The translations under genes were made by a program, and so were the position numbers. Of a stretch of DNA of 33,745 nt, positions 1-33,617 are shown one piece after another (positions within the stretch are counted from its first letter, which is position 1; each line of letters begins with the position of its first letter). Below the pieces are notes generated by a model that made no database searches, was not told where the DNA came from, and saw only the letters and a list, made by a program, of their open reading frames with translations. The DNA is taken from the NCBI GenBank assembly GCA_027451445.1, contig DAIDJG010000338.1, positions 1-33,745 of the forward strand, written 5' to 3'. Source of the DNA: Singulisphaera sp. (GTDB lineage Bacteria > Planctomycetota > Planctomycetia > Isosphaerales > Isosphaeraceae).

Positions 1-143
1 TTTGCACTTATGATCCAACAGGCGGCGATCGCTCGAACAAGGCTGTTTTTCAGCCACCGTCGCCATGTTCGTTCTCGTCGGCTGGCCAGCCGATGCCGTG
101 TGCCTTTTCGGCCCCCCCGTGAAAAGTGTCGGGTCGCCAGCCT
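1..143. mobile_element. MITE-like dispersed element, copy A (left end lies outside the window)
   Basis: This stretch aligns almost without gaps to 31661-31802, with an offset of about 31,660 bases. Identity is highest over positions 3-75, including a shared small hairpin (ggctg ttttt cagcc), and falls to roughly three quarters further on. The right end (about 121-143) matches the right terminal inverted repeat of the complete copy at 31616-31801 with a few changes. The left terminal repeat would fall about 44 bases before the window. No coding capacity is visible, so it looks like a non-autonomous element. It directly abuts the G-rich palindrome at 146-218. This copy is more decayed than the other. 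Confidence 0.7.
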
Positions 144-145
144 TC

Positions 146-218
146 GTGGGGGAGGGCTGGGGTGGGGGGCTCGCACAACCCGTGGCCACCGGAACCCCCC
201 ACCCCGGCCCTCCCCCAC
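146..218. repeat. REP-like G/C palindrome with G-quadruplex potential
   Basis: Positions 146-169 and 195-218 are inverted repeats of 24 bases with one mismatch, separated by 25 bases. The left arm is a G-run series (GGGGG A GGG CT GGGG T GGGGGG at 148-169) and the right arm is its C-rich mirror, so each strand carries one canonical four-run G-quadruplex motif. A second full copy lies at 10223-10324. Within this copy the right side continues into a small hairpin (ccctc ... gaggg, about 208-231). It lies downstream of lpxB, where it could also act as a transcription end. Confidence 0.85.
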
Positions 219-10092: not shown

Positions 10093-10222
10093 CGGGTGTC
10101 GATCTCAATAGAAGCCAGAACAGTTCCGCACGCGGTCCTTGACCTGGTAAATCCTTCACGGCGGGCCTTGGTCCGCACGGCGAGGCCCCGATCCTCGAAG
10201 CCCAAGAAGACGTAGGATTTAA

Positions 10223-10324
10223 CTCCCTCCCCCCTTGTGGGGGAGGGATGGGTGGGGGGGTTCGAGCGGCCACGGGTGGTGCGATACCCCCCACCCCGGC
10301 CCTCCCCCACAAGGGGGGAGGGAG
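10223..10324. repeat. REP-like double hairpin (BIME-like) between sufB and sufD
   Basis: The outer arms 10223-10247 and 10300-10324 are perfect 25-bp inverted repeats. Each arm is itself a hairpin (ccctccccc-N5-gggggaggg). The inner parts (10248-10260 and 10287-10299) also pair with a few mismatches. G-run series at 10239-10260 gives a G-quadruplex motif. The 26-base centre is related to the reverse complement of the centre of the copy at 146-218, so the spacer is inverted relative to that copy. Lying inside the suf operon, it could set the ratio of upstream (sufCB) to downstream (sufD onward) mRNA. Confidence 0.88.
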
Positions 10325-31599: not shown

Positions 31600-31817
31600 A
31601 ACTCCCTCCCCCCTTGTCTGGCCACCCGACACTTTTTGCGCGGCGGAACGTCTTGCAAGGCTTGCACTTATGATCCGACAGGCGATGATCGCTCCAAAAT
31701 GGCTGTTTTTCAGCCAACATAGCCTTGTTCGTTCCCCAGCAAGCTCAGCCATTCGCGGTGTGCTTTTTGGCCACCGGGTAAAAAGTGTCGGGTGGCCAGA
31801 CCCAACTGGGGAGGGAC
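31600..31817. repeat. REP-like hairpin interrupted by the MITE
   Basis: aactccctccccccttg (31600-31616) matches the start of the REP-like copy at 10221-10237, and tggggaggga (31807-31816) is the other arm of its hairpin. Between them lies the MITE (31616-31801). The interruption is in the hairpin loop, next to ttg. Confidence 0.75.
31616..31801. mobile_element. MITE-like element with 22-bp perfect terminal inverted repeats, copy B (complete)
   Basis: Positions 31616-31637 (gtctggccacccgacac then ttttt) and 31780-31801 (aaaaagtgtcgggtggccag then ac) are perfect inverted repeats, giving an element of 186 bases. There is no coding frame of note. The interior contains a hairpin tggctg-ttttt-cagcca near 31700. 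The segment 31661-31801 is shared with 1-143. A clear target-site duplication cannot be read. Size, terminal repeats, lack of genes and a second dispersed copy fit a non-autonomous miniature transposable element; the mobilising transposase is not in the window. Confidence 0.8.
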
Positions 31818-31841: not shown

Positions 31842-33617
31842 TTACAAGCCGCTCAAGTCCGCGGCGATGACGCGCACTCCGTGCTTGAGTTTGAGCCGAT
31901 CAACAGTATCGGCGTTTGCCGGGGCGGTCAGGGTTTTGCGAGGCGGCAGACAAAAGCCCGCCAGTGCTGCGGGGGGATTCTCTGCCGAGACTTCAGTTCC
32001 GGCCAGTGCCAGGCCGTTCAGAATCAAGGGGGAGCCGTTCTCGATCTTGATCTTGTACGACAGCTTTCCGTTCACGCGCGGTCCCTTGGACAGGTGGACG
32101 CGCACGAGGCGCGTCAGCAGGCCTTCCGCGACCGCATCGCCGAGACGTGCCGCCTGGGCAAGGCGCACCTTGTCGCGGCTCGGTTTGTCGGTGGTGGAAT
32201 TGTCAAAAACCGGTGTGATATCAGCACGCTTGATCGTGAACGGCGTGAGCTCCTGCCAGGCCGACGCATCGCCGTCGGTCGAGGCCGGTTCCACCGAGAT
32301 CGACTGATCATCAACCTTGAGGCGGCACGCGAGTGCCGGCCCCTCCGGGTGCGCGGGAATGCCCTCGTGCGGCTTGAGGCCGAGTACTGGGTATTGGCTC
32401 CAGAGCGACCGCAAGCGTTCCACAAGCGCTTCCGATTCAACGCCACTGGATTTCGCTTCCCAGTAGAGCCGGCCCGAATCTCCGTTCGGCGAGGAGTCCG
32501 CCGCGGAATCAAGCCGGTCAACAAACTGGCGGGCCAGCGCGAGTTCATTCGCATTGGCCCATCCCTGCGCCTGGGACAACCGGCCAATCGTTTCCCAATC
32601 GATCTTTGCGGCCACGTTCCAAAGCACCAACTGAGCGACGGTCTGAGGCGCCTTGTCTTCGGCGAGTCGCTTCATCGCGGCTTGCGTGCGGGAGTCCTCC
32701 GTCACCTCGGTGATCGATCCGACTCGATATTTCTCCCCCAATTCAGGCACCAACGGACGACCGTCGCGTTCCGCGATCGGCCCCGACAACCCCACGACGG
32801 CGGTCGGCAAATGGCGCGATTGATGAGGGGCGAGCGTCGTTTCGGGCAAACCCGTTGCGGGCACGGACCGGAAGCCACCACCCATGCCACCCATCATCCC
32901 CATGCCGCCGCCCATCATCCCCATGCCGCCGCCCATACCCATCATCATGCCCATCATAAGCGAGCGCTGATCCCAACTATCGCGATCGCCAATCAGCGTC
33001 ATGATCAGGCGGCCGAGCATCATCATCCCCATGGAGGCAGGCATTGTGCCGCCGCCCCGCATGCCCATACCACCTCCCCGCATGCCCATACCACCTCCCA
33101 TCATGCCACCGCCCATACCACCCATACCGCCGCCCATCATGCCCATGCCACCGCCCATCATGCCCATGCCGCCGCCCATCATGCCCATGCCACCGCCCAT
33201 CATGCCCATACCACCGCCCATCATGCCGCCCATACCGCCGCCAAAGCCACCCATGCCACCAAACTGGCTGGTTGCATTGGAGACAATGAGGCCCGGCGGG
33301 AGAACCACGCGCAGCTTGCGTCCGGTGCGGTTCGTCAGCGAAAGCGTCACTCGCCCGTCCTTTCGGCCTTCTGCGGAAGCCGAGAGTTGACGCGTTTTGA
33401 GGCCCTCAAGAACATTAATCGTGAGAATGTCTTCCTCGGACCTGCCGTCTTTCGACGCCGGCGATTTCGCCGTCGGCTCGTGAGCCGTGGACGGCGTCCC
33501 AGGGTTCGGGGACGAACTCGCGGAGTCCGCTCGCAGCGGCGGCAATGACGTGAGTGCCAAGACACAACCAGCGACCAACGCCGTGAAAACGGACGCAAGA
33601 CGCGCACGCGCAAACAT
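31842..33617 (-). CDS. Secreted Met/Gly-repeat protein of unknown function
   Basis: The 591-aa protein has a signal peptide (about 1-30, MFARARLASVFTALVAG then CVLALTSLPPLRADS). A small beta-like segment follows (RQLSASAEGRKDGRVTLSLT, NRTGRKLRVVLPPGLIV). Next are two Met/Gly-rich blocks (about 118-195 and 220-250) built on GGGMGMM heptads, and a C-terminal domain (about 265-591) ending in KLKHGVRVIAADLSGL. I do not recognise the family, though Met/Gly-rich secreted proteins are frequent in planctomycetes. The ATG at 33617 is chosen because the signal peptide starts there. Methionine clusters could bind copper, which is speculation. The open frame on the other strand is His-rich only by mirror translation. 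Confidence 0.8.
   Translation of the reverse strand: MFARARLASVFTALVAGCVLALTSLPPLRADSASSSPNPGTPSTAHEPTAKSPASKDGRSEEDILTINVLEGLKTRQLSASAEGRKDGRVTLSLTNRTGRKLRVVLPPGLIVSNATSQFGGMGGFGGGMGGMMGGGMGMMGGGMGMMGGGMGMMGGGMGMMGGGMGGMGGGMMGGGMGMRGGGMGMRGGGTMPASMGMMMLGRLIMTLIGDRDSWDQRSLMMGMMMGMGGGMGMMGGGMGMMGGMGGGFRSVPATGLPETTLAPHQSRHLPTAVVGLSGPIAERDGRPLVPELGEKYRVGSITEVTEDSRTQAAMKRLAEDKAPQTVAQLVLWNVAAKIDWETIGRLSQAQGWANANELALARQFVDRLDSAADSSPNGDSGRLYWEAKSSGVESEALVERLRSLWSQYPVLGLKPHEGIPAHPEGPALACRLKVDDQSISVEPASTDGDASAWQELTPFTIKRADITPVFDNSTTDKPSRDKVRLAQAARLGDAVAEGLLTRLVRVHLSKGPRVNGKLSYKIKIENGSPLILNGLALAGTEVSAENPPAALAGFCLPPRKTLTAPANADTVDRLKLKHGVRVIAADLSGL
33130..33234. repeat. 21-bp tandem repeat encoding GGGMGMM heptads
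   Basis: Four near-identical 21-base units (33130-33150, 33151-33171, 33172-33192, 33193-33213; consensus ccgcccatcatgcccatgcc plus one base) are followed by a partial fifth. On the coding minus strand each unit gives one Met/Gly heptad. Differences are mostly at third positions. A shorter related block is at about 32880-32960. Confidence 0.9.

Follow-up and report, generated by a model that had tools for sequence, protein, structure and literature searches.

We find that non-autonomous MITEs of this genome adjoin halves of C-run/G-run palindromes almost without exception, and very probably an IS4-family transposase moves these elements in trans into the axes of REP-like palindromes. This interpretation is drawn from sequence: the elements share their ends, 10-bp duplications occur, palindrome halves flank 51 of the 52 testable ends, intact palindromes stand empty elsewhere, and the transposase ORF is intact and bears an IS4 signature. 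In the proposed mechanism, a MITE of about 182 bp with terminal inverted repeats of 19-20 bp would be mobilised by a DDE transposase whose gene lies in an insertion sequence of 1,187 bp, present in the same genome and bounded by the same terminal repeats. The transposase would cut and paste the element into the palindrome axis, where a 10-bp stretch (CCCNNNNGGG-like or CCTTGGGAAG) becomes duplicated and one palindrome arm is left on each side. The cut-and-paste chemistry and the mode of recognition, by arm sequence versus hairpin or DNA shape, are what we infer from these features. The window, 33,745 nucleotides in length, comprises contig C338 in full; the assembly totals 10.88 Mb in 622 contigs.

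Palindrome halves at element ends and intact targets

Element ends were collected genome-wide with up to three mismatches allowed, and their flanks were extracted and classed by palindrome type. The 53 ends found belong to the MITE subfamilies alpha and beta, to one gamma outlier and to the insertion sequence, which is present once in full and otherwise as several fragments at contig ends. With one end left out of the flank test because its flank measures only 1 bp, half of a C-run/G-run palindrome adjoins 51 of the 52 ends with a usable flank, at a nearly fixed palindrome position; the remaining flank, on C326, is degenerate. These counts bear out the central proposal of the earlier note, that a non-autonomous element has target specificity for REP palindromes. 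They also answer its worry that most copies might lie in unrelated flanks, as the flanks adjoin palindromes while the DNA outside the palindromes is unique except for similarity confined mainly to repeat arrays. R2 halves (AACTCCCCCCCTTGGGAAG or CCCCCCCTTCCCAAGG) account for 29 ends, R1 halves (CTCCCTCCCCCCTTGTGGG or CCCTCCCCCACAAGGG) for 18, including the left flank of copy B in the window, and R3 and R4 halves for two each. Since every insertion gives one end of each kind, the larger one-sided half count per type is a lower bound on the number of sites, and the sum over R2 (21), R1 (9), R3 (1) and R4 (1) indicates at least 32 separate insertions in at least four palindrome types. Left halves of R2 number 21 against eight right halves; the G-rich right half was perhaps lost in assembly. 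A contig end lies within 400 bp of 41 of the 53 element ends, so that most insertions are visible from one side only. Such crowding of copies at contig ends is what a fragmented assembly should show for near-identical repeats.

The two MITE copies seen whole on C515 and C146 carry exact 10-bp duplications at the palindrome axis (CCCACAAGGG and CTTGGGAAGG, respectively) and are the only MITE copies with a perfect duplication in place, while the insertion sequence on C205 is bordered by an 8-bp duplication (CCTTGGGA). When the flanks of the C515 and C146 copies were joined minus one duplication, the best matches ran gap-free across the junction, with 32 and 15 junction-spanning matches, respectively, to intact repeats elsewhere in the genome. 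Nearly every 10-bp duplication starts with C and ends with G, and outside the duplication at least seven of nine bases are pyrimidines in all 52 usable flanks; no figure was taken from the random control for pyrimidine content, which drew contigs evenly and is distorted by masked bases.

The window also holds an intact empty R1 double palindrome, consisting of two inverted hairpins around a 24-nt loop, at positions 10222-10324 between two SufB/D-like genes. It is of the type that flanks copy A and provides a reference for the unoccupied target. As DNA, this segment folds into a strong hairpin (−51.9 kcal/mol, z −8.7), and hairpin folding is possible for R1, R2 and R3 sites alike. About 40 R1 units were found, and R1 and R2 occur in pairs and arrays, in keeping with the description of REP/BIME units as high-copy extragenic palindromes, often in inverted pairs (extragenic position was checked within the window). 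The REP definition also includes a GTAG or CGTC tag beside the palindrome (PMC3733652). A further hallmark of REPs is their link with REP-associated tyrosine transposases (RAYTs). R1 and R2 were absent near Y1 tyrosine-transposase genes at the four examined of nine such genes in the genome, and an Rfam search of the window returned no match. Background counts were obtained from 40 sampled contigs (0.49 Mb) and scaled to the genome: about 217 CCCN4GGG sites in the sample extrapolate to about 4,800 genome-wide, and intact R1 and R2 palindromes together extrapolate to about 300 in 10.9 Mb; the sample contained no element ends. An even-centred palindrome score did not separate the target sites from random CCCN4GGG sites because several loops are odd-sized. 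At the orthologous site downstream of lpxB, no comparable palindrome was found in the same-genus genome G001 or in G005, an uninformative comparison.

The MITE family and its two copies in the window

The alpha and beta subfamilies, of 182-183 bp, are about 80% identical to each other and have terminal inverted repeats of 19-20 bp (ends CTGGCSACCCGACACTTTT). Complete beta copies were aligned from C515, C103 and C146. Alpha copies, 98-100% identical across most of their 182 bp, are the places where most contigs break. The family resembles bacterial MITEs in general, which are short and non-coding and have terminal inverted repeats, target duplications and a related autonomous element in the genome: it is multi-copy with no evident coding sequence, exact 10-bp duplications border the two two-sided copies, and an insertion sequence of the same genome has the terminal 19 bp in common. 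A search by DNA similarity found no such MITE in 58 other genomes. The gamma outlier (C530:1-300, at least 300 bp) has the same end as the MITEs and an internal inverted repeat, GCGGGGGCTTGCTCCCGC; apparently it holds another repeat inserted within a MITE.

Copy A, at positions 1-140 on the plus strand, is the 3′ part (140 of 183 bp) of a beta MITE, as indicated by alignment with complete beta copies; its first 43 bp are absent because the contig starts inside it. The element ends at 140 rather than at about 143 as previously claimed, and is followed at 141-150 by CCTTCGTGGG, the putative right-hand 10-bp target duplication by analogy with the duplications of two-sided copies. This sequence is a variant of R1, and the same loop variant flanks a copy on C249. 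What is left of the R1 double palindrome into which copy A has inserted lies at 141-226, with inverted repeats I1 and I3, the flank of this copy being seen on one side only.

Copy B is a complete 182-bp alpha MITE at positions 31618-31799 on the plus strand, with terminal inverted repeats of 19-20 bp (CTGGCCACCCGACACTTTTT) and no evident coding sequence; the span 1-218 given earlier for both copies thus contains A and not B. Both copies sit between genes. The left flank of copy B (31600-31617) is an R1 half-palindrome, AACTCCCTCCCCCCTTGT, and its right flank (31800-31815) is a half, ACCCAACTGGGGAGGG, of the single-copy palindrome R3, which differs from R1; the right flank does not contain TGGGGTGGGGGG, which comes after GGGGAGGG in R1. 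No target duplication surrounds copy B, nor the C118 copy in place. Copy B does not split one hairpin, and the view that A and B lie in the loop of the same hairpin has to be abandoned; what holds of it is that the window contains two related inverted-repeat elements next to C-rich/G-rich palindrome arms. A targeting argument built on A and B alone fails because the halves around B stem from two different palindromes.

The other half of R3, CCCCTCCCCAACCCAACTGG, adjoins the left side of the C118 copy, and the right side of copy B reads ACCCAACTGGGGAGGGACG. The two share an exact 10-bp duplication and give a perfect hairpin when joined, and intact R3 has no match in the genome within three mismatches. 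Judging from these flanks, this is a single R3 insertion whose two sides were separated onto two contigs, via recombination between MITE copies or an assembly join. The mismatched flanks of copy B are accordingly best explained either by homologous exchange among MITE copies or by contigs having been joined through the repeat during assembly, and for this copy an assembly artefact could equally well be the cause as recombination. The near-identity of alpha copies, the breaking of most contigs within them and the recovery of one site with a perfect 10-bp duplication from B-right and C118-left speak for an artefact; against it, hybrid direct repeats in three of nine copies of ISRm22 were read as recombination (PMC1525189). 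Contigs joined through the MITE repeat, this window at copy B included, may be chimeric. Elsewhere in the window, positions 32865-33266 contain a repeat region with a 21-bp period within a 611-aa minus-strand ORF without a Pfam match.

A candidate transposase and its relatives

An intact insertion sequence of 1,187 bp (C205:7271-8457) has the same terminal repeats as the MITEs and occupies the same target repeats, with 19 of 19 terminal bases in common between its 3′ end and that of alpha. The MITE interior is unrelated to that of the insertion sequence, likeness being confined to the terminal repeats, so that the pairing rests on the ends. This insertion sequence is the likely source of transposase for the MITEs, and mobilisation in trans by its transposase is what we infer, the interiors being unrelated. 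Its ORF encodes a predicted single-ORF DDE transposase (DDE_Tnp_1) of 358 aa (PF01609, 34.7 bits against a cut-off of 23) with D63D101E spacing and an exact Y2R3E6K, YSKRVWTEELFKDEK. As the IS4 family is defined by a Y(2)R(3)E(6)K signature and D(60-110)D(100-150)E spacing (PMC2266710), the predicted protein falls within the published definition of that family. A duplication of about 10 bp, as in the IS4 family, was seen at C515, at C146 and in the relative from G017 (10 bp each), and measures 8 bp at the insertion sequence itself. The best family match, NCBIfam NF033591 (transpos_IS4_2 equivalog), reaches 117.5 bits against a cut-off of 152, a score below cut-off that suggests a divergent relative outside that equivalog. 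With regard to IS4 subgroups, the length of 1,187 bp and a duplication of 8-10 bp agree with IS4Sa, the CT end with IS10.

Transposases 72-73% identical to this one were found in G017 and G065, and more distant ones, 49% identical, in G067 and G066. The G017 and G065 relatives (about 73% identical) have a 10-bp duplication, GGTCCGGAGG, and the G017 site is a short GC palindrome that is not an obvious REP. In the complete genome G067, from another family, the 49%-identical relative is accompanied by a MITE, and five of five ends lie in C-run/G-run palindromes, the duplications at those ends being imperfect. This MITE, an independent one of 200 bp with related ends, lies in a C-run/G-run palindrome at G067:C1:7202071-7202270. 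A wide contig scan for the transposase gave one match, without a target duplication. These comparisons suggest that palindrome specificity is probably older than this genome, yet not strict everywhere. More tentatively, and with some doubt on our part, an IS4-type transposase lineage found across families of this class may recognise C-run/G-run palindrome architecture rather than one sequence, and may be the source of independent MITE families, each colonising the palindromes of this kind in its own host, R1-R4 here and others in G067.

Alternative explanations and REP-targeting precedents

That MITE and palindrome form one composite repeat spreading together, with no targeting, would agree with the dispersed, multi-copy nature of R1 and R2 themselves, and the earlier note had named it as an objection. 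However, four palindrome types, one of them single-copy, flank the same element, numerous palindromes stand intact and empty, 10-bp duplications are present and the same sites serve as targets for an insertion sequence whose interior differs. A composite repeat is refuted by R3, a single-copy site bearing a 10-bp duplication, and by the intact empty repeats, and we give it the least credence of all. Scarcely more credible, and still very improbable, is random insertion with survivors only in neutral intergenic DNA, REPs merely marking intergenic space. Selection against the disruption of genes is certainly at work and the copies in the window are intergenic, but the roughly 300 intact R1 and R2 palindromes account for little of even the intergenic DNA and nevertheless hold nearly all ends. 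Near-exclusive and nearly always axial occupancy of palindromes, at 51 of 52 ends and a nearly fixed position, makes a by-product of intergenic survival very unlikely.

A far stronger contender, only slightly less probable than an even chance, concerns the recognition step alone: the transposase would read a short rule, CCCN4GGG-like with a pyrimidine-rich left and a purine-rich right arm, of which REPs are the richest source. The C...G form of nearly all duplications and the pyrimidine content of all 52 usable flanks are consistent with it, as is R3, which fits although it lies outside any repeat family. On the other hand, the CCCN4GGG sites extrapolated for the genome run to about 4,800, the ends found include none at such a site outside a palindrome, and the R1, R2 and R3 sites share the capacity to fold. 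The short-rule and hairpin views overlap and are not told apart by these data. Under either, targeting of palindrome axes by an IS4-family transposase acting in trans stays the favoured reading.

IS1397 and ISKpn1 belong to the IS3 family, differ from the element here in transposase and in duplication length, and are autonomous elements only. Like the element here, these enterobacterial elements insert into palindromic REP/BIME units (cited in PMC1525189). The parallel with IS1397 drawn in the earlier note is apt as behaviour, but the transposase here is of the IS4 family, for which ISRm22 is a published REP-targeting precedent (PMC1525189). REP targeting by insertion sequences is established, including by ISRm22 at the palindrome axis (PMC1525189; PMC2266710), and ISRm22 is the nearest precedent, closer than IS1397. 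In Sinorhizobium meliloti, every copy of this IS4Sa-subgroup element sits at the REP palindromy axis, like the element described here (PMC1525189; PMC2266710), and its hybrid direct repeats recall copy B (PMC1525189). Its direct repeats are 6 bp rather than 10 bp, hosts and REP sequences differ, and the likeness is one of description, not of transposase alignment. The IS110/IS1111 elements ISPpu9, ISPpu10, ISPa11 and IS621 also use REPs as targets but have a different type of transposase; for this family, RNA-guided target choice (PMC11208160, PMC11187229) and direct repeats of 0-2 bp in REPs (PMC1525189) are reported. A MITE carrying a REP targeted by IS1111 represents the reverse nesting (PMC10969869). 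The term MITE is absent from the ISRm22 paper (PMC1525189), and the literature searched, subscription journals lying mostly outside it, yielded no report of a MITE whose insertion is restricted to REPs.

REP targeting is known from a few transposons, and each of the REP-targeting insertion sequences described so far is present in few copies; in this genome a swarm of miniature elements makes it plain, in a burst that offers, for a single specificity, at least 32 sites belonging to at least four palindrome types. With the diverged transposases found elsewhere, this burst opens to direct test the question of whether arm sequence, hairpin or DNA shape is recognised.
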